Positions 6,114-34,821 of a DNA stretch of 50,097 nucleotides are shown here, piece after piece; position 1 is the stretch's first letter, and every line of letters starts with the position of its first letter. The position numbers and the translations under genes are program-made. Location: IMG/VR virus record IMGVR_UViG_3300030393_000004, positions 1-50,097 of that record. One strand, given 5' to 3'. Below the pieces are notes generated by a model, which saw nothing but the letters and a program-made list of their open reading frames with translations, did not search any database and had not been told where the DNA came from. The DNA is from a virus.

Positions 6114-8882
6114 TTAAGGCCACTTTCGTTTAACCTGCTTGTCGTTCTCAGGGTTGCGAATGACGCGACCCTCACCCATTAGCACAGCTAGCGCGTTCTC
6201 CATTGCGTCTTGACCATGCTCAAGCAGCTCTTTTGATATCTCCTGGTAATACTTCTGGCGCTTAAGGTAGTTCTTAAGCTCAGACTTATAACGCCATCCG
6301 TCGCGCTCATCCTTCTTGGACACAGACAGTCTCTTGATGATGGCCTCTTTAATGCCTTCAAGCTTATCTTCCACCGTGGCACCGTCTACCGCTTCGTTAA
6401 CGCGTAAGTTACTGCTTAAGTGATCGACAGAAGCAAGCGCAAGTTTAATGGCGTACATCACGTACTCCTCTTCAATAACCAACTCACCGTTAACTAGGTT
6501 ATCCATCGCCAAGATAGAAGCAACAGACATCACACGTTCAGGCAAACGCGCATAGATAGCGCCTAATCGGTTGTGATTGATGTAGTGATACTGATCGTAA
6601 TGGCATGACACGTCATACATCAGTTTGTACGCTTCTGGCGTCGCGGTCATTTTGTATTCGTGCCCGTTAAACTCAGCATCGATTTTCTTCTGGCTTGTGT
6701 CGCTAGCCATCTGAGCTATGGCACCAATGCGCGCCTTTAGTTTCTGCAGCTCGATTTCGGTTTGTCTTTCGTCGTGTGACTTCTTGCCCCACAAATCAAA
6801 GTTGCGGTGCGTTCTCTCTGAGCCGCAGTCGAAGATGAAACCACGACCCAAGAAGCCAGACTCAATCGCGTCCTCATCAATGATAGCTGCAAGTTTTTTA
6901 GGTGTAGACAAGGCGATCAGGTTTAAGCATGGATCTTTAATTCCGCTTTCCAGACCTTCCATCATGCCTTGAAGTTTGTTGATCTCAACTTGGATTTTCT
7001 CAAGCTCTGCTTCTGCCTTTTCAATCTTTGGTTTTTCAATCTCTGGGTGATAACCAAGTTTGATATCCTCTTTTGCTAGTACCTGCTTTTCAAGTCGGCT
7101 AATACGGTGCATCATTTGCCCTTGGAATTCATCAAGGTGCAAGCGTGAGATTGGCATTAGTGAAGTAGTAGCCAACTCCATTAGTGTGGCTGGAATGTTC
7201 GCGCTGTGCTTCTCTTGCTTTGAATTTGCCGCCAATAATGAATGTGCCTCATCTTTGATATAGAAACAGCGGCCATTATCGTAAACGGCAGAGCGTATAA
7301 CGTCCTTGTCAGAACGGATATCGCCATACACTTTGATACCACTTGAGGCTAGGATTTCCTTGATAACCTTCTGCGGCCACTCTTTACCACCAGCTGACAA
7401 GCCAAGAATAATGGTGATCATACTTGTCTTGGTTCCCATGAACCCACTTATACCAGCGCCAGCCATAGCTAGGCACTGCAAAGCCATTGCAGCATAAGCG
7501 CCGCCTTCCAACTCTCGGTGCGCGCCTTTCTTCATGAAGTCGACAATATCACCCGCAATTGCTGGTGGCGTATCTAGGTCGATGTGATCTAGATTGATGT
7601 CATTCGGCAAGTCTTCGACTGTCTTTGGTCGGTTTGGGTTTTTAATTGCTGGCTGTGGCGCCGGCGCTGCATTTAACCACGAACCAAACGCGGGTGGTGG
7701 TGCTGGCTCAGTTATAGGTGCTACAAAAGCCGCCTTGAACTGTTCTTCTTTCGCTTGTGGTGTTGAATCCACAACAACAGGCTTAACCACTGGCGCTTTA
7801 ATGTTCCCTAACTCTTTCTTAACCATATCGCGAAGCGTGGCTTTTAATGCATCCATACCATGCGCCTGTCGGTAGTCGTCCCAATCGCCATTTGTTTCAA
7901 TATCCATATCAGGAATAACCACACCCGCACCATAAGCTGCAGCTGCTTCGTTTGCGTAGTATTCACCCGGTCGTCGGTTGTGGTTTTCGTCTAACTTATC
8001 ATGATCACCAAAAATGATAACGCTCGAATCTGGGTGGTCGCCTTTGGCCTGTTTAACCGCTGCAGCTAGGTTGCCCGTGTTAAACGAAACATAGGTCTTC
8101 CACTTGGTTGCTTGGTTGATTGTCACGCCAGTTGCGAACCCTTCAGCAATAGCAATATTCTTTGTGGCACCGTCAATAACATGGTGAACGCCTTGCATGT
8201 CTCCACCAAACAACGGGCGCTTTTTGCCGTCTTCGGTGATCTTCTGTACGTTAACGAGTTCGCCGGACTTATAAACTGGCACCAGTAAAAGCTCACCAGG
8301 CTGCGTGATACCTTCGCGGCTCATCATTGGCTCTCCATTCACCAACCATTCACCAGAAAGCCCCTTGCTATCCATGTAGGCATGGCTTGCGCGTATCGCC
8401 GCGTCAACCATAAGCTTTGCGCCTTTCTTCGCTTGCTCGATGTTCGCTGCGCGTACTTCGTCATGGTTCACGGTATGGATGCGTTTTGGCGCAATGCTTC
8501 GGTGTAGATCGTCACCAACTAGCTCTTTTGCTGTTGCCATGGTTGTCTTGCCTAGATACATGGACAGCAGCTTTAAACCGCCGCCGCTTTGCTCTGGACA
8601 CTGCGAGCAATACCATGTGCCTAAGCCGTTTTTGTCGTCAAAGCGAAATCGGTCTTTACCACCGCAAACAGGGCAAGCGCCGTGCTTTTTATTGCTTGGC
8701 AGTTTTACGCTGTAGTTTTCAAGAACCGTTCGCCATTGACCTTGGAATTGAACCAAAGCTTTGTCGATCGGCGTGTCGCCATTGCTTTGGTATTGAAACT
8801 GGACGTTGCACCCGCAGTCTATCGGATCTGCTAGGCTTTTTCGTGTTGTGTGTCCACATGACAGTATTAGTGGGAATTTCAT
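6114..8882 (-). CDS. P4-type primase with Toprim and DUF3987 helicase-like domain
   Basis: 922 aa from the ATG at 8882 (a longer frame exists from a TTG at 8930, but AAGG lies correctly before 8882). Zinc ribbon with C70, C73, C92 and C95 (CPVCGGKDRFRF, CSQC); Toprim region with IAIAEGFATGVT and VIIFGDHDK around residues 240-300; a Pro/Ala-rich linker; then a DUF3987-like ATPase region with a P-loop variant GLSAGGKE (Glu in place of Ser/Thr) and FYIKDEAHS as Walker B. It synthesises primers and probably unwinds DNA at the phage origin. Co-directional with the Cro-like gene upstream. Confidence 0.9.
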   Translation of the reverse strand: MKFPLILSCGHTTRKSLADPIDCGCNVQFQYQSNGDTPIDKALVQFQGQWRTVLENYSVKLPSNKKHGACPVCGGKDRFRFDDKNGLGTWYCSQCPEQSGGGLKLLSMYLGKTTMATAKELVGDDLHRSIAPKRIHTVNHDEVRAANIEQAKKGAKLMVDAAIRASHAYMDSKGLSGEWLVNGEPMMSREGITQPGELLLVPVYKSGELVNVQKITEDGKKRPLFGGDMQGVHHVIDGATKNIAIAEGFATGVTINQATKWKTYVSFNTGNLAAAVKQAKGDHPDSSVIIFGDHDKLDENHNRRPGEYYANEAAAAYGAGVVIPDMDIETNGDWDDYRQAHGMDALKATLRDMVKKELGNIKAPVVKPVVVDSTPQAKEEQFKAAFVAPITEPAPPPAFGSWLNAAPAPQPAIKNPNRPKTVEDLPNDINLDHIDLDTPPAIAGDIVDFMKKGAHRELEGGAYAAMALQCLAMAGAGISGFMGTKTSMITIILGLSAGGKEWPQKVIKEILASSGIKVYGDIRSDKDVIRSAVYDNGRCFYIKDEAHSLLAANSKQEKHSANIPATLMELATTSLMPISRLHLDEFQGQMMHRISRLEKQVLAKEDIKLGYHPEIEKPKIEKAEAELEKIQVEINKLQGMMEGLESGIKDPCLNLIALSTPKKLAAIIDEDAIESGFLGRGFIFDCGSERTHRNFDLWGKKSHDERQTEIELQKLKARIGAIAQMASDTSQKKIDAEFNGHEYKMTATPEAYKLMYDVSCHYDQYHYINHNRLGAIYARLPERVMSVASILAMDNLVNGELVIEEEYVMYAIKLALASVDHLSSNLRVNEAVDGATVEDKLEGIKEAIIKRLSVSKKDERDGWRYKSELKNYLKRQKYYQEISKELLEHGQDAMENALAVLMGEGRVIRNPENDKQVKRKWP

Positions 8883-9981: not shown

Positions 9982-10022
9982 TTACTTTTGATTGTTCTGT
10001 GCGACAATATCATAAAAAGTAA
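9982..10022 (+). promoter_or_regulatory. Leader inverted repeat before an HNH gene
   Basis: TTACTTTT (9982-9989) pairs with AAAAGTAA (10015-10022), with inner ATTGT/ACAAT arms. The 3-prime arm runs into the AAGGG ribosome site of the endonuclease gene, so folding may limit its translation. Confidence 0.35.
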
Positions 10023-10032
10023 GGGCTCTAAC

Positions 10033-10854
10033 ATGAATTACAGAAAGCTGCACAACTCAATCATAAACAATGCAATAACAAGATCTAAAGTGAAGGATCA
10101 ATATAAAGAAAATCACCATATAATTCCAAAGTCGATGGGAGGGACTGACAAAAAAGAAAATATAGTCCAATTAACAGCAAGAGAGCACTTCATTGTTCAT
10201 TGGCTGCTAAAGAAAATCCATCAAAACAAGTCTATGACCTATGCATTTTTCTCAATGACAAAGCTTGGAAATGAAAGCCAGCAGAGATACACAAGCCATA
10301 GCTTTAAATACGCAAGGGAATCTATGTCGAAAATGATGTCCGAACGAGTTGGCGATAAACACCCAATGCATGGCATTACTGGTGATGACAACCCAAACAC
10401 AGGATCAAAGCGAACAGAGGAATCCAAAAAGAAAATGTCAATAGCTATGACTGACAACAGAGTCGGCTCAAAAAACCACAAATCGAAGCCTGTTAAGAAT
10501 TTAGATACTGGTGATGTTTTTGAGTCAGTAAGGCAAGCTCAGTTAAAAACTACAGGTAACGTTTCTTACGCAATAAGAAGTGGCGGCACTGCTGGTGGTC
10601 ATAGGTATTCATACGTTAATGATGGAGAGCAATTATCAGAAAAACTAAGGCTTAAAGGATACATGAAGGGTGATAGTCATATTAATTCAGTGTCAATAAG
10701 AAACATAACAACAGGTGAAGAGTTCAGCACAATTAAAGCTGCTGGAGAATCAATTAGCAAAACAGGAACAGCGATAAGTTGGTCTATCAGAAACAACAAA
10801 GAGATAGGCGGCTTTAAGTTCGAAAGGATCAACAATGAAAAAAATGAAGCCTAG
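10033..10854 (+). CDS. HNH homing endonuclease with NUMOD modules
   Basis: 273 aa from the ATG at 10033 (AAGGG upstream). HNH core near residues 25-55: NHHIIPKSMGGTD, then KENIVQL and AREHFIVHWLL. It is followed by NUMOD3-like segments (GDKHPMHG, GDDNPNTG, EESKKKMS) and two NUMOD1-like repeats (PVKNLDTGDVFES and SIRNITTGEEFST). It is wedged between the SSB-like and helicase genes and overlaps the latter by 20 nt. Likely a mobile free-standing endonuclease. Confidence 0.88.
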   Translation: MNYRKLHNSIINNAITRSKVKDQYKENHHIIPKSMGGTDKKENIVQLTAREHFIVHWLLKKIHQNKSMTYAFFSMTKLGNESQQRYTSHSFKYARESMSKMMSERVGDKHPMHGITGDDNPNTGSKRTEESKKKMSIAMTDNRVGSKNHKSKPVKNLDTGDVFESVRQAQLKTTGNVSYAIRSGGTAGGHRYSYVNDGEQLSEKLRLKGYMKGDSHINSVSIRNITTGEEFSTIKAAGESISKTGTAISWSIRNNKEIGGFKFERINNEKNEA

Positions 10855-14729: not shown

Positions 14730-15308
14730 ATGAAAGTAGATATTTACGACACAGGCAAAAAGTACGATGTTATTTATGCCGATCCACCATGGCAATTTAA
14801 CAATAAGAAAACTGGCGGCTCCATGAAGTCTGGCAGCGAGCATCAATACAAGTCTGTCATGTCAATTGACGACTTAAAGGAGATGCCAATACCAGAAATT
14901 TCCAGTGACAATTGCTTGCTTGTCATGTGGTGGGTTGGCTCAATGCCACAAGAAGCTATCGACTTGGTTAACTCTTGGGGATTCACCATCAAGAACATGA
15001 ACGGCTTTGTGTGGAATAAGATCACCCAAAACAACAAGCCATACTTTGGCATGGGTTTTTATACCAGAGCTGGTAGTGAGTCATGTGTGATTGCCACTAA
15101 AGGCAAGTTCAAGCCAGTTAGCCGATCTGTTCGAGCTGTGTTCTGTGCTGAGTCTCAAATTCAATTTGAAGCAAAGGTAACAAAGCACTCAGAAAAACCG
15201 CACCAAGTAAGAGATCTAATCGTCGACTTGGCTGGCGATGTGCCACGCATTGAGCTTTTCGCGCGCAAGACTGCGGACGGTTGGGATTGTTTTGGGAATG
15301 AGGTGTAG
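14730..15308 (+). CDS. MT-A70 family DNA adenine methyltransferase
   Basis: 192 aa. VIYADPPWQF (DPPW at 18-21) is the catalytic motif IV; CLLVMWWVGSMPQEAIDLVNSWGF and FGMGFYTRAGSESCVIATKGK follow the MT-A70 order, and KPHQVRDLI plus RIELFARK the S-adenosylmethionine site. It should N6-methylate adenine in DNA. No cognate nuclease is adjacent, so it is an orphan phage methylase, probably protecting phage DNA or changing host methylation patterns. Confidence 0.92.
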   Translation: MKVDIYDTGKKYDVIYADPPWQFNNKKTGGSMKSGSEHQYKSVMSIDDLKEMPIPEISSDNCLLVMWWVGSMPQEAIDLVNSWGFTIKNMNGFVWNKITQNNKPYFGMGFYTRAGSESCVIATKGKFKPVSRSVRAVFCAESQIQFEAKVTKHSEKPHQVRDLIVDLAGDVPRIELFARKTADGWDCFGNEV

Positions 15309-27635: not shown

Positions 27636-27788
27636 TTAGTTGCTTACTGTGAATTCTCCATCACTATCTACGTTGACATCAATATATTCGGTATCACTTG
27701 GCATGTGTATATCTATCCAGCACACCTCAGACTCATCGTTCACACCATTTGCTTCTACATGCTTTTTAAATTGCGCCCAAGTTACCAT
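27636..27788 (-). CDS. Hypothetical 50-aa acidic protein
   Basis: Starts at the ATG overlapping the stop of the upstream gene. MVTWAQFKKHVEANGVNDESEVCWIDIH followed by an acidic beta region (VDSDGEFTV). Function unknown. Confidence 0.55.
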   Translation of the reverse strand: MVTWAQFKKHVEANGVNDESEVCWIDIHMPSDTEYIDVNVDSDGEFTVSN

Positions 27789-28426
27789 CACTTCACCCCC
27801 TTGCGGTAGTTGGTTTTGTCTACGATCTTGATGTATATATCTTTTAGTGGGCCAAAGTTGCAAAAACTATCAAACGTAGTTTTTTTATCAAGTGCATGAC
27901 AATACAAATCATAAGCCGCCTCAAGTCGCTCACGGTCTTCGCGTTGTTGTGGGGTTTCGGGTTTGCGGAATACTCGGTTGCGCTGCTCCATAGTGTCGAT
28001 AACAACTTCCATTCCTTTGTAAGTTTCTTTTGACAGCATTTCACCAACAACCACATACTTGCTAGAGTATTTACATAGCAACTCAACATCATGGTTAGGG
28101 TCTACTGTGTAGATGGCCCCAACAGGCGGCAAGCCTTCGCCGTTCCATTCAATCTCACCACTAAGCGCGCTCATTGCTTCTTGGTGTTCACTTTGCGTTT
28201 CAACTTTGTCGATGTTCATTTGGTTTTCCAAATCAGATAGCAAAAATACACTTGGCTGAAAAATATCTCTAAATACATTAATGAACACTTCATCAAGTGA
28301 TGAGATTACCGTTTCGTTTTTGTAGTATTGAGTTTTACCTTCAATGCACGAGAAGTGAGTCGCCTCTTTTGGTGCGCCTTCGATAATTTCTTTGGCTTTA
28401 TTGTTGCTAATATCTGTTAATTTCAT
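27788..28426 (-). CDS. Hypothetical accessory protein
   Basis: 212 aa. The middle (IEWNGEGLPPVGAIYTVDPN, KYVVVGEML) resembles a short beta domain seen in many phage accessory proteins; the C-terminus (PQQREDRERLEAAYDLYCHAL) is helical. AACAGGA ribosome leader. Inserted between tail genes gp45 and gp46; no function can be assigned. Confidence 0.6.
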   Translation of the reverse strand: MKLTDISNNKAKEIIEGAPKEATHFSCIEGKTQYYKNETVISSLDEVFINVFRDIFQPSVFLLSDLENQMNIDKVETQSEHQEAMSALSGEIEWNGEGLPPVGAIYTVDPNHDVELLCKYSSKYVVVGEMLSKETYKGMEVVIDTMEQRNRVFRKPETPQQREDRERLEAAYDLYCHALDKKTTFDSFCNFGPLKDIYIKIVDKTNYRKGVK

Positions 28427-28508: not shown

Positions 28509-29165
28509 TTAAGGTTGCGAACCACTATTACCAGTAATTGGTCTAGATTCAGCATCCTGATAACTACCAGCCGCGTGGACGTGGTCTTTCTGCTCTTTAC
28601 CTGCAACAGTAAGTGACGATGAGCCATTAAGCACTGGAGCGCCAACACTCACAGGTGAGGTTGCCGAGCCGTCAGGGTTAATGATAAAGCCATTCAGGTT
28701 AAACGCTTGCCCCGTCTGCGTCATTGCCCCACTAGAATCAACCGTCTTGGTGTAAGCGCCGTTTGTCTCACTCCAGCTACCATCAGCGTTAACCGATTTC
28801 GAATAAGCACCATTAGTCTCAACCCATGAGCCGTCTGGATTGATAGTCTTGCTGTAACTGTCATTGGCAATAATGATAGTGCCGTCTTTCTTCAGATAAA
28901 CGTGGTTAACTGGATTGCCGTTAGCGTCACGTGCGTATGTACGCTTTTCCCCTGGCTCTGCAATCTTGTTGTCGTAATCAAACGCACCCAGGTAAACATC
29001 CACACCATTCTGACTAGTGCGATCGCTCCATCCATCATCTTGTGGTAGCGGTCGAGAATCATCACCTAATGGTTGCAAGTGCTCCATTTCGTTAATGTCG
29101 GTTGCATCAATGACGGCTTTTATTCTGCTGCCAATATTACTAAGCGCTCTGGTTATTCTTCCCAC
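28509..29165 (-). CDS. Mu gp45 / P2 V-like baseplate spike protein
   Basis: 218 aa with a GTG start and an AAAGGAGG ribosome site. Begins with an OB-like region (SRPLPQDDGWSDRT, PGEKRTYARDANGNPVNHVYL), then three tandem repeats of about 17 residues with YSK-N-DGSW-ETNGA pattern (about 103-155), consistent with a triangular beta-helix needle. The C-terminus contains DHVHAAGSYQDAESRPITGN, whose HxH can bind iron at the spike tip as in P2 V. It pierces the outer membrane. Confidence 0.88.
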   Translation of the reverse strand: MGRITRALSNIGSRIKAVIDATDINEMEHLQPLGDDSRPLPQDDGWSDRTSQNGVDVYLGAFDYDNKIAEPGEKRTYARDANGNPVNHVYLKKDGTIIIANDSYSKTINPDGSWVETNGAYSKSVNADGSWSETNGAYTKTVDSSGAMTQTGQAFNLNGFIINPDGSATSPVSVGAPVLNGSSSLTVAGKEQKDHVHAAGSYQDAESRPITGNSGSQP

Positions 29166-29292
29166 TTGCAGCCTCCTTTTGCTTGGCTCGTTGATTTCGC
29201 TTGCGGCATTTATCAGAGCCGCATGTTTGCGCGTTCGACTGCATTCGCATTGGTGGTGCGTCGCAGTATGGGCATTTAAAGATTTTAGGCAT
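29140..29292 (-). CDS. 50-aa zinc-ribbon microprotein
   Basis: FKCPYCDAPPMRMQSNAQTC followed by GSDKCRKRNQRAKQKE: CxxC and CxxxxC pairs and a basic tail. It overlaps both the gene upstream (ATG/TAA) and the gp45-like gene by 26 nt. The zinc ribbon could bind nucleic acid; role unknown. Confidence 0.6.
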   Translation of the reverse strand: MPKIFKCPYCDAPPMRMQSNAQTCGSDKCRKRNQRAKQKEAASGKNNQSA

Positions 29293-29471
29293 TAGTCTTC
29301 CCACTCTATATTTAAGATTTCTCCGCTATCGACGCATTGTAGTGTTGCTTTGCATATATCAATAACTGGTCCGCAACCCATATCGCTAAATGCAGTAATT
29401 GTGAAATCAATAACTATGAACCTGTCACCTCGAATGGAAATTTCTTTTCCTATATCTGATTTTTTGATCAT
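29292..29471 (-). CDS. Hypothetical 59-aa protein
   Basis: Begins MIKKSDIGKEISIRGDRFIV; beta-rich with Cys at MGCGPV, DICKA and LQCVD. It lies directly downstream of the PAPS-reductase-like gene and touches the zinc-ribbon gene, so the three probably form one accessory unit. Confidence 0.55.
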   Translation of the reverse strand: MIKKSDIGKEISIRGDRFIVIDFTITAFSDMGCGPVIDICKATLQCVDSGEILNIEWED

Positions 29472-29474
29472 AAT

Positions 29475-30794
29475 CTACTCACACAGCCCGTACTTAGAGC
29501 TACAGACATCTTGAGTCAATGCCTCAGTAACAAGGTCGTAAACCTTTCCACCGCGCCCTGTCTTAGACCATTCAACAGCATCGTAAACGCTTCCTCCAAT
29601 AATATTTCCTCTAGGGCCAAGCATTGATGTGCCTTGGTAAGCTTCAACGTCAAGGGTTTGTATTCTGTTTAGCTTCTTCTCATACCCAAATCTAAACTTA
29701 CTAGACCCTGATATTATTGGATAAGATTCTGGAGCTTGTGTTGTTTCGTTTACTCCAGTGTAAATTCCAATCTGGTTTTTCATGCTTTTAAACTGGCGTC
29801 GATTCACATGCCCAACAACCATCCAGTGGATCCAGCGGGACATCAGTGCAACTTGCTTCTCCCATCGATGAACTCGTTCGATCTCATCAGGGAACCTCGC
29901 AGCCGTCTCGGCAAGCTCCTCCTTATTTACAAGTATGCAAGGCATGCACCCAACCCTCCCCATACCTTGACTGTATAGCGGATTAGGCTTAACACCAAAG
30001 TGCTTATAAATTGCAAAAACCTCTTGGGCGCTCCATTTATGGATTGGAAGGAAGTTAAACAAGTCTCCAGTATCAGACATGTTATCAATGGAAAACCTAT
30101 CGTAAGCAGCTCGCTTTTCAGATTCATCACCCCGAACCCCAGACCAGACAACAACCTCACCGTTATCAAGGGCCGGGTCGTAAACCTCATTAAATGCTAG
30201 ATTTATCTTTAATTCTTCAGTGCAAAATCTATTTCGCCCTAATGGAAATCCACCATGTAAAATGCACATATCAAGAAATGGGTTGCCAGATTTTTTGAAC
30301 ACAGATTTCATTGCATCAAACGCACAGTCAAAACTTCCGTGGTACAAGTGAGCAGAACGCTCTCGCCACAACTCCGCAAATTTGGTGTCAGTCCTTTTTA
30401 GTGATGGCATCACTGTTCCTCGGTACGATCCAGCTCTTACCATTTGCTTCTTGGACCAATCTTTCTCAAGTCGTTTAAATCTTTTGTCGAACGTCTCTTG
30501 AGAATACTCAGCCCTAAGTATTTTTACTGGATCTCCTCCGCGCTGCTCGTGGAGAGTCTTTAGGTGGTTAATCGTGTACGGGTGCTCATTTCCAGTGTCG
30601 CAAGCGACTGACTTGTAGTTTCCTTCAAGTATCTCCATGGCTAATAGATCGGTAGCTCCAGAGTCTTTGCCGCCACTGTTTGCGACAAAAACCTGATGAT
30701 CTTTCTCAATGCCATGGACTTCTATCTTTTCTTGGTATGTTCTTTTTACTTCGGATATCAGCTGCCCGATATCGCTTATGTTTAGATAACTCAT
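29475..30794 (-). CDS. PAPS reductase / DndC-like PP-loop ATPase
   Basis: 439 aa from the ATG at 30794 (AGG eight bases upstream). PP-loop SGGKDSG at about 40-46; ACDTGNEHPYTINHL; NRFCTEELK (C191), WSGVRGDESEKRAAY, and GCMPCI (C283, C286) match PAPS-reductase/DndC-type proteins, where a Cys trio can hold an Fe-S cluster. Such enzymes adenylate a substrate for sulfur chemistry. It is longer than most phage homologues (about 250-300 aa) and lies between tail genes; possible roles include DNA phosphorothioate-like modification or anti-defence, which are inferred. Confidence 0.82.
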   Translation of the reverse strand: MSYLNISDIGQLISEVKRTYQEKIEVHGIEKDHQVFVANSGGKDSGATDLLAMEILEGNYKSVACDTGNEHPYTINHLKTLHEQRGGDPVKILRAEYSQETFDKRFKRLEKDWSKKQMVRAGSYRGTVMPSLKRTDTKFAELWRERSAHLYHGSFDCAFDAMKSVFKKSGNPFLDMCILHGGFPLGRNRFCTEELKINLAFNEVYDPALDNGEVVVWSGVRGDESEKRAAYDRFSIDNMSDTGDLFNFLPIHKWSAQEVFAIYKHFGVKPNPLYSQGMGRVGCMPCILVNKEELAETAARFPDEIERVHRWEKQVALMSRWIHWMVVGHVNRRQFKSMKNQIGIYTGVNETTQAPESYPIISGSSKFRFGYEKKLNRIQTLDVEAYQGTSMLGPRGNIIGGSVYDAVEWSKTGRGGKVYDLVTEALTQDVCSSKYGLCE

Positions 30795-30854
30795 ATTCAT
30801 CGCCTGTTCGTTAATGTCTACACAGTGTCACTCAATAACTGGACGCTGTCAACA

Positions 30855-32066
30855 TTATTCTTCCCACGGTAACATCTCCACTTCTTTCCCGCTGTAAGCC
30901 TCTGGCAATGTCAATTCCAACTCGCACACTCTAGAGCTTGGTGTAAGTGACATTGTCACGCCTCGCACAAACATCTTAGTGTCACGGTAAATCATCGCGT
31001 TAGGCGCTTCAATATTCACAAAGGTATTCACAGCGTAAAGCGCATTGTTTGGATCGCGTAATGTAGCCAGTTGGCACGTATAACTGATTGAGTTGGCTAA
31101 ACCGCGAGCTCTTCGGCTCTCTGCCACTGTCTTTTCGTCACCGTTAAACGAATCGGTCGCCATGTAGTTATCCACGCGTAGCGCGTTCGTAAGCTTACGA
31201 TTCTTAGCCGTGTAACTGGTTGGATTCTGTCTAATGATAACTGGCAAAATCGCCGTGTAATCGCTGTAGTAGCTTTGCTCACTGAAAGATGGAGTAACAG
31301 ACAGCAAAGGCGGTTGATTGTCTTTCAGGTACGCCACGCTTTCAGATTCGGTGGCTCTCGTGAGTAACAAGTTACCCTCAAGGTTGTTGGTCAACACGAT
31401 GTCACGCTGCTTGGCTAGCTCAGTGAGGTATGGGGCGATCCGCTTCTCTGGCTTAATGGTTGCTACGCTAAACGATGCGCCCATATCAGCATTGACCACC
31501 ACATCAAATGGGAAAGTCTCAGTTACTGACTTGGCGATTTTATCAAGCTTAAACCCGCGAACCTCAACCGGATAAGCCGAAATAGGAACGCAAGTATCAT
31601 TGATCACCGCGCATCGAGAATAAGCCGATAGCGTTACGGTTCTACTTTGCGCTGTCACGTTAGGGTTAACGCCCATTTGAGTTCCGCTAAACACCAACTC
31701 TTCACCAATAAACACCTCAATGTCTTGGTAGCTAAAAGGCTTAAACAATTGTCTAAACTGCGTATTCTCTGGCTCAAATGGCGCGATAATGTCGCACGTA
31801 TCAAACGAGTCAAAACGCTGGCTCACTAATATTTCAAGAAAGTTTTTAAACTCAAGCCCACCAATCAAAAGTGTCACTTCATCAAGTGTCGGGTTGATCT
31901 TACTTTTAGCTGGTGTCTTTGGGATAAATAACTGCGTGCCTTCGTCAAGCGTTGCACCCGCTGACGGGTTAGCCTTTCGTATGGTTGGCGTGTTTTCTTC
32001 TGTGCCATATTCCTTGCGGCTTATGTCTTCGAATGTTTCGCCGGATTTTGCGGTGTAGGTTGTCAT
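30855..32066 (-). CDS. Mu gp44 / gpD-like baseplate hub with LysM domain
   Basis: 403 aa. An N-terminal LysM-like segment (AKSGETFEDISRKEYGTEEN, ending LFIPKTP, about 3-50) is fused to a late-control-D/gp44-type hub: FDTCDIIAPFEPEN, IEVFIGEELVFSGTQM, VRGFKLDKIAKSVTETFPF, and NSISYTCQLATLRDPNNALYAVNTFVNI. The hub holds the spike and the LysM part may bind peptidoglycan or other tail proteins. Confidence 0.85.
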   Translation of the reverse strand: MTTYTAKSGETFEDISRKEYGTEENTPTIRKANPSAGATLDEGTQLFIPKTPAKSKINPTLDEVTLLIGGLEFKNFLEILVSQRFDSFDTCDIIAPFEPENTQFRQLFKPFSYQDIEVFIGEELVFSGTQMGVNPNVTAQSRTVTLSAYSRCAVINDTCVPISAYPVEVRGFKLDKIAKSVTETFPFDVVVNADMGASFSVATIKPEKRIAPYLTELAKQRDIVLTNNLEGNLLLTRATESESVAYLKDNQPPLLSVTPSFSEQSYYSDYTAILPVIIRQNPTSYTAKNRKLTNALRVDNYMATDSFNGDEKTVAESRRARGLANSISYTCQLATLRDPNNALYAVNTFVNIEAPNAMIYRDTKMFVRGVTMSLTPSSRVCELELTLPEAYSGKEVEMLPWEE

Positions 32067-33931: not shown

Positions 33932-34094
33932 TGATAGCCTCCTTTAAACCCAATGCGCGAGCGGCTGCCCCGCAGATCATTACTGCAAATACAATGTAAA
34001 CACCTGTAAGAAAGTAAGAGCTTTCAGCGATGAATGGAAGTGGCAAGAATGCTAAGAATGCCGCTAGTGCAAATTTAAATAGTTTAGTTTTCAC
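33921..34094 (-). CDS. Small two-helix membrane protein
   Basis: 57 aa with a GTG start and GGAGA upstream, overlapping the Rha-nuclease gene end by 11 nt. Two hydrophobic segments (FALAAFLAFLPLPFIA and TGVYIVFAVMICGAAA). Size and topology resemble class II holins; role unproven. Confidence 0.5.
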   Translation of the reverse strand: MKTKLFKFALAAFLAFLPLPFIAESSYFLTGVYIVFAVMICGAAARALGLKEAINAN

Positions 34095-34821
34095 TGTGCT
34101 TCTCCAATCTTGCGAATGTTACTGTTTCTGCGTAAGAGCGATCTTGATTATGAGTGTCAGTAGCTCCAATAAGGATAGCTCCGCGCTTATAGTTGTTGCT
34201 TTCAGCTATGACAGTTGCCTCTGCTGCATTCATACTATTAAGCGCAAGATAGGACATTATTAGAGACAATCCATAAATCTCAGAGCCTTTGCTGATCCGT
34301 ATTAAGTTTGGTGTTGCACCATCCCTGTCAGATATATGGTTAAAGATATCGCTCCATCTATCTTCGTCTTTTTTTGCGTGAGACTTACTAAAGTGCTGCT
34401 CTTCGTCATACTCGACAAATAAGCCCAAACCCTCAAGGTAAAAATCAACCCTATACCCACACACTGGAAATTGCCTAACTACATTAATGTGAGGCAAGAA
34501 CTCACAAAGCATCTTATAAAATATATCTTCGCTCCTAGTCCTCTTACTCCCAACCACTACGACATCAGAACCAAAGCTGTCCAGTATTATGGCTTTTTTC
34601 ACCCCAGATAAGGATCTGAATTCGGACAGCAGACTAAATCCGTCAAGATTCATCGTATATTGCTTGTAGACTCTACCCCTTGCGTTCTTGAACTCACCCA
34701 TCTCAAACAAATGGCTGTATTCCATATCTGATAATAATAGCCTTTTTACCTGGCGCATAATATCCTTGTGCTGGATATTGTAAATATCACTAATTTCTCT
34801 CGTGCTAATCTCAACTCTCAT
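34084..34821 (-). CDS. Rha-like regulator fused to a putative endonuclease domain
   Basis: 245 aa. Residues about 1-90 (TREISDIYNIQHKDIMRQVK, YKQYTMNLDGFSLL) match the phage Rha/pRha DNA-binding pattern. Residues about 96-195 look like a PD-(D/E)XK or Vsr-like nuclease: RVDFYLEGLGLFVEYDEEQHF (D126, E137, D139, H143) then KKDEDRWSDIFNHI. The gene sits alone behind a terminator with its own promoter and palindrome. A homing-type or regulatory nuclease is likely; the fusion is unusual. Confidence 0.65.
   Translation of the reverse strand: MRVEISTREISDIYNIQHKDIMRQVKRLLLSDMEYSHLFEMGEFKNARGRVYKQYTMNLDGFSLLSEFRSLSGVKKAIILDSFGSDVVVVGSKRTRSEDIFYKMLCEFLPHINVVRQFPVCGYRVDFYLEGLGLFVEYDEEQHFSKSHAKKDEDRWSDIFNHISDRDGATPNLIRISKGSEIYGLSLIMSYLALNSMNAAEATVIAESNNYKRGAILIGATDTHNQDRSYAETVTFARLEKHSEN

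Follow-up and report, generated by a model that had tools for sequence, protein, structure and literature searches.

What is the role of a gene resembling those for phosphoadenosine phosphosulfate (PAPS) reductases in the middle of a phage tail operon, and do its small neighbours belong to it? The window, herein the whole stretch of DNA analysed, is one whole virus record (G000; 50,097 bases) of a marine Vibrio phage, which encodes terminase, portal, tail sheath and Mu-like baseplate genes together with its own primase and helicase. The genes in question lie on the minus strand in the tail operon, with a baseplate hub gene on one side and a gene for a 218-aa spike-like protein on the other. 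A first-pass annotation had described an enzyme gene followed by two tiny genes with overlaps, and three minus-strand ORFs were indeed found (29475-30794/30800, 29292-29471 and 29140-29292). The 59-aa gene overlaps the zinc-ribbon gene by 1 nt as described, whereas the enzyme gene and the 59-aa gene are separated by a gap of 3 nt; the zinc-ribbon gene overlaps the next tail gene by 26 nt. The features of the locus, in the order of transcription, are as follows.

30855..32066, minus strand: left flank, baseplate hub gene, 403 aa (phrog_177 baseplate hub, E 3.6e-82)
30855-30867, minus strand: repeat copy 1, GTGGGAAGAATAA, the last 13 nt of the hub gene (from the sequence)
30795..30854, minus strand: cassette leader, TGTTGACAgcGTCCAGTTATTGAGTGACACT...AACAGG, with the Shine-Dalgarno-like AACAGG at its end (missing at empty sites)
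29475..30794, minus strand: variable cargo, PP-loop enzyme of PF01507/phrog_424, 439 aa (SGGKDS; C191/C283/C286; C431/C438)
29292..29471, minus strand: 59-aa gene, PP-loop companion (four homologues, in other Vibrio phages)
29292..29304, minus strand: near copy of the repeat (12/13), GTGGGAAGACTAA, at the end of the 59-aa gene (from the sequence)
29140..29292, minus strand: zinc-ribbon ORF, constant, 50 aa, the 3' end of the cassette (Cys7, Cys10, Cys24, Cys29)
29153..29165, minus strand: repeat copy 2, GTGGGAAGAATAA, the first 13 nt of the next tail gene (from the sequence)
28509..29165, minus strand: right flank, conserved tail (spike-like) gene, 218 aa (shared with sister phages)

Other parts of the window also carry variable or inserted genes. 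A second variable region (27788-28426, minus strand) lies between the spike and wedge genes, and its gene differs strongly among sisters both in length (161-303 aa) and in sequence; a gene with a Rha-like N-terminus and a weak match to DUF559 (nuclease-like) forms an insertion in the tail region, on the upstream side of the hub genes (34084-34821, minus strand); and a homing-endonuclease-like gene (phrog_655; 9988-10854, plus strand) stands immediately before, and overlaps, the helicase gene.

The enzyme may start at the first ATG (30800), giving 441 aa, or at the second (30794), giving 439 aa. The ATG at 30794 is better spaced to the AACAGG of the leader than that at 30800, and the five cysteines are C191, C283, C286, C431 and C438 when counted from 30794, or C193, C285, C288, C433 and C440 from 30800. 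The PP-loop and the cysteine trio C191/C283/C286 noted in the first-pass annotation are both present, the numbering being right if 30794 is the start, but 439 aa, there called larger than usual, is a normal size for this family (profile length 460; relatives mostly 414-485 aa). Profile searches gave matches to PF01507 (E 1.3e-21; 77.8 bits against a cut-off of 22.5) and phrog_424 (E 4.5e-55), and none of the NCBIfam cut-offs was passed, the CysH and APS reductase profiles all scoring below theirs (PRK02090, 56 against 154 bits; TIGR02055, 41 against 235; TIGR02057, 25 against 254). The name DndC-like is apt at the superfamily level, with weak partial PADLOC matches to SspD (E 1.5e-15), BrxP (E 1.3e-15) and DndC (E 2.6e-10), but the enzyme fails the DndC model TIGR03183 (38.6 against 290.4 bits), and no match to a cysteine desulfurase (PF00266) or DndD (TIGR03185) was detected in the whole record, which rules out a self-contained Dnd system.

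After alignment with 63 relatives (residues counted from the first ATG at 30800), S42, G44, K45, D46, S47, C193, C285, C288 and C433 turned out to be invariant; C440 is kept in 61 of the 63, and the sole variation of the SGGKDS loop is G43A, in 19 of the 63. The enzyme ends with C-[SQ]-S-x-Y-[GA]-[LV]-C-[ED]; this conserved C-terminal cysteine pair and the bounding 13-bp repeats were absent from the first-pass annotation. A chance ORF was ruled out by the invariant residues, together with the codon bias of the zinc-ribbon gene described below. In solved structures the loop position is occupied by SSSFGI in PAPS reductases and SGAEDV in the APS reductase, whereas GMP synthase, QueC and LarE agree with the loop region of the phage enzyme; the CxxC is missing from the PAPS-type reductases in the alignment, and the phage enzyme has three cluster-type cysteines. 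Because the loop resembles that of GMP synthase, QueC and LarE and not that of the reductases, the phrog_424 family combines the loop of an ATP pyrophosphatase with a GCxxC half like that of APS reductase. An AlphaFold model built with 15 sequences reached a pLDDT of only 54, and we therefore used the rerun with 63 sequences (mean pLDDT 82, core above 90), in which the C-terminal segment of about 110 residues including the cysteine pair is poorly modelled. The closest solved folds to this model are APS/PAPS reductases, then the 4Fe-4S tRNA thiolases TtuA and NcsA, and GMP synthetase. Hundreds of relatives were found in IMG/VR, of which 567 were confirmed, and thus the enzyme family is common.

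The position of the gene was examined by comparison with sister phages, which have the hub, spike, wedge and J genes in common. At five empty sites (L023, L025, L026, L028 and L029) the hub and spike genes overlap directly over the 13 nt of GTGGGAAGAATAA, while at filled sites, in the window and at twelve other loci, GTGGGAAGAATAA is present twice, at the end of the hub gene and at the start of the spike gene, and the two copies enclose the leader, a variable cargo and the constant zinc ribbon. The comparison of 13 filled with five empty sites, in which the filled phages are related to each other and the counts are not fully independent, indicates that genes were inserted between two genes adjoining in relatives. 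These 13 nt belong to both hub and spike, so that an insert leaving the two genes intact necessarily duplicates the 13-mer, and the repeat alone is therefore no proof of transposition; the empty site would be regained by recombination between the two copies. The near copy (12/13) with which the 59-aa gene ends is possibly a third recombination point, or a coincidence arising from the conserved WED tail that it encodes. The leader of about 50 nt, TGTTGACAatGTCCAGTtATTGAGTGACACT...AACAGG, is conserved and, among sister phages, was found only at this slot; a search for it in IMG/VR gave no match. It includes TTGACA, yet no site passed the sigma-70 consensus scan, leaving a sigma-70 promoter unsupported, and no terminator was found at the 3' end of the cassette.

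In all 13 protein-filled loci inspected, the cargo belongs to a nucleic-acid-modifying enzyme family. C5 methylases occupy the slot in L030 and L036 (as annotated) and L027 (by its GGSPCQ motif), a phrog_757 DNA methylase in L022 and L035, and a phrog_954 DNA methylase in L034; a TGT/DpdA-like phrog_887 protein, presumably functioning as a TGT, was tested in L019 and has a syntenic annotated homologue in L031-L033. The remaining three loci, the window, L018 and L020, carry PP-loop proteins with no significant mutual similarity at full length. One clade of the hub tree (support 100/99) contains eight phages with six cargo types, and therefore the cargo turns over faster than its neighbour genes, changing between phages whose hub genes are about 90% identical; the hub gene of the window is 90% identical in DNA to that of 1.246.O. 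The slot thus offers a natural swap experiment, in which close relatives carry different modification enzymes at one site and sister isolates are directly comparable for DNA chemistry and host range.

Not every insert in these tail operons is of this kind. At the same hub/spike junction, one sister phage carries a non-coding insert of about 540 nt (L024:7213-7770). It is predicted to form a strong RNA structure (z -5.4), includes a hairpin resembling a terminator, and gave no match in Rfam. Vibrio phage MAG7 has a copy of 93% identity at another junction (DNA-circularisation/hub), and fragments occur in other Vibrio and E. coli phages, mostly in stretches without annotated genes, making the insert a candidate mobile structured RNA. 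Two further tail-operon junctions of sister phages hold a C5 methylase (PF00145; L031:1039-1689) and an N6/N4 methylase (PF01555) plus a calcineurin-type phosphoesterase (L030:988-1653 and 7416-8063). Given the non-coding insert in one slot and the phosphoesterase at a neighbouring junction, these junctions do not serve DNA modification exclusively.

The zinc-ribbon ORF is constant in filled slots (86-96% identity among those aligned) and is under purifying selection, with 23 synonymous against 9 non-synonymous variant codons and 27 of 36 changes at codon position 3. It is missing at all five empty sites, ruling out a fixed backbone gene, and it also follows methylases and the TGT homologue, ruling out a specific partner of the PP-loop enzyme. 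A 75% identical copy in phage K249 follows a PP-loop gene outside any tail operon, and remote relatives overlap HNH_3 genes (L044:4001-4637, L045:2039-2690) and a GIY-YIG (T5orf172/MUG113) gene (L020:601-1672), all inserted among structural genes. The zinc ribbon is best seen as a small DNA-binding-like part travelling with inserted genes, not as a PP-loop-specific enzyme subunit.

The 59-aa gene behaves differently. Among 50,697 phage records searched, only four homologues were found, all in other Vibrio phages, and no match to the family was obtained in IMG/VR or GTDB genomes. All four stand upstream of a PP-loop gene, adjacent to it in 1.105.O, 1.023.O and 13VT501A and one gene off in 1.178.O. 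In phages of some 75-90 genes each, chance is very unlikely to have produced all four placements. The companion PP-loop genes form three subfamilies (L039/L041, 84% identical; L038; L040), that of the window being a fourth, and the gene order is reversed in the window, where the 59-aa gene lies downstream. By this recurrent neighbourhood, the 59-aa gene is a genuine PP-loop companion.

As neighbours of enzyme relatives in other phages, both small genes are absent, and the zinc ribbon accompanies any cargo, even HNH and GIY-YIG genes; the proposal that the three genes form one co-occurring unit was thus not borne out. DNA methylases were direct neighbours of the enzyme in 9 of 76 dereplicated cases (D12, 4; C5, 3; Dam, 1; MT-A70, 1), against at least 2 of 76 among control genes 2-5 places away, as counted from 25 of 54 families listed (Fisher p about 0.03), an enrichment that is suggestive only. 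The window itself contains an MT-A70-type methyltransferase gene with a DPPW motif (14730-15308, plus strand), well away from the cassette, and with it the phage may have two routes of DNA modification. A pair of the IbrA/IbrB type (PAPS-like plus ParB) was ruled out, as no ParB-like gene adjoins the enzyme among the ORFs and profile matches of the window; a ParB HTH was matched once among the 76 neighbours of enzyme relatives.

Taken together, and on comparative evidence throughout, we consider it about an even chance (roughly 0.5) that the locus is an exchangeable nucleic-acid-modification cassette, whose cargo here is a stand-alone PP-loop, probably sulfur-transferring, DNA-modifying enzyme. 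Three observations favour an enzyme of this kind, modifying nucleic acid and probably transferring sulfur: DNA methylases and a base transglycosylase take its place at this site in sister phages, its ATP-pyrophosphatase loop is intact, and five of its cysteines are conserved. As to the earlier proposal of phage-DNA modification, the 13 protein-filled slots argue indirectly for its nucleic-acid part. The substrate of the enzyme would be nucleic acid, with the phage's own DNA as the preferred candidate, modified late in infection and ahead of packaging. With the SGGKDS loop it may use ATP to adenylate a base or a backbone oxygen; the C-terminal cysteine pair might take up sulfur from a host cysteine desulfurase, and sulfur would be delivered via a [4Fe-4S] cluster presumably held, as in related families, by C191, C283 and C286. 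Since the genome has neither desulfurase nor DndD, the sulfur would have to be host-derived. The 59-aa protein would serve as a PP-loop-specific accessory, and the zinc ribbon as the constant cassette part, possibly DNA-binding, that could also supply homology for cargo exchange. The putative benefit would be escape of modified phage DNA from recognition by host nucleases.

TGT- and PP-loop-type enzymes can have tRNA as well as DNA as substrates, and the enzyme might instead modify or thiolate host or phage tRNA, as do TtuA, TtcA and NcsA, for instance for escape from anticodon nucleases or tuning of translation. The 4Fe-4S tRNA thiolases are the closest solved folds after the reductases, and the family of the TGT-like sister cargo takes its name from a tRNA enzyme; most alternatives in the slot are, however, DNA methylases, the window is without a tRNA gene, and the late tail-operon position would better suit DNA packaging, so that we regard a tRNA substrate as unlikely. 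A selfish or defence cassette, hitch-hiking or guarding the infected cell against other phages with the phage's own DNA unaffected, would account for the HNH and GIY-YIG genes accompanying zinc-ribbon relatives and for the non-coding element at the same site, and phages are known to carry defence-gene hotspots flanked by conserved genes (PMC9122126). This appears distinctly improbable, the protein cargo of the slot consisting of modification enzymes throughout, nucleases and toxins being absent, and the leader and zinc ribbon being conserved, the latter under purifying selection.

Two further explanations take the enzyme's named relatives at their word. A solitary DndC/SspD-type protein, which would make phosphorothioate DNA by using IscS and further partners borrowed from the host, would agree with the PADLOC matches and with the three cluster cysteines plus Cys dyad described for DndC (PMC10853773), to which the three cysteines and the pair of the phage enzyme may correspond, but we judge it very doubtful from the score far under the DndC cut-off and from the lack of DndD and desulfurase in the genome, DndD and DndE being described as the core of Dnd systems (PMC10853773). 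Hardly to be expected is a true assimilatory PAPS/APS reductase, i.e. a cysH auxiliary metabolic gene: it would explain the PF01507 match and the best structural matches, and the conserved C-terminal cysteines could mimic the catalytic tail of CysH, but the loop, the sub-threshold CysH score, the three cluster-type cysteines and a slot in common with DNA methylases all speak against it. Viral 'PAPS reductase/cysH' genes have repeatedly been reported as auxiliary sulfur-metabolism genes. If the family modifies nucleic acid, the ecological inferences on sulfur metabolism drawn from them will have to be revised, and phage DNA chemistry of a new class can be put to the test. A wider reading, in which stand-alone phage PP-loop DNA (thio)modification enzymes with a dedicated 59-aa partner form a plug-in cassette swapping with methylases and transglycosylases, and many viral 'cysH' genes fall in the same class, is tentative, and we hold it as possible rather than probable.

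Among known systems, the enzyme belongs to the same family as the phrog_424 'phosphoadenosine phosphosulfate reductase' proteins of phi458 and of 186-like, P2-like and lambdoid phages (44-62% identity for the nearer members, about 33-35% for the more distant), with SGGKDS/SAGKDS, three cysteines and a C-terminal CxSxYxxC tail in common. The genes of these relatives are found close to those for replication or recombination, in some cases next to a DNA methylase gene, whereas the window enzyme is in a tail-gene slot with a leader, a 59-aa companion and a zinc ribbon. To CysH and APS reductase it is linked by PF01507, by the best solved-structure match and by the APS-reductase-like GCxxC half, but it differs in the intact ATP-pyrophosphatase loop, the three conserved cluster-type cysteines and the CSSxYGLCE tail; a plain CysH role seems unlikely because true PAPS/APS reductases have SSSFGI or SGAEDV at the loop. 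With TtuA and NcsA it shares the PP-loop fold and, by analogy, a three-cysteine [4Fe-4S] cluster and ATP-dependent thiolation, but the structural match is weak (TM about 0.3-0.4) and no family match was obtained at the sequence level.

The likeness to DndC, SspD and BrxP consists in a PP-loop ATP pyrophosphatase with cluster cysteines. DndC is described with a three-cysteine 4Fe-4S centre and a Cys dyad thought to receive sulfur (PMC10853773), and BrxP is reportedly without the dyad (PMC12839542). The three cysteines and the pair conserved in the phage family are possible counterparts of these, with cluster binding putative, but the pair is at the extreme C-terminus. Phage TGT homologues (DpdA), which the cargo of four sister loci resembles, put deazaguanines into phage DNA, with protection from restriction (PMC6884629). 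As in morons and the accessory-gene hotspots of phages such as P2/P4, variable cargo is set between two conserved phage genes (PMC9122126), but the slot of the window is built on a 13-nt gene overlap duplicated as a flanking repeat, has a constant leader and zinc-ribbon end, and is restricted in its protein cargo to nucleic-acid modification.
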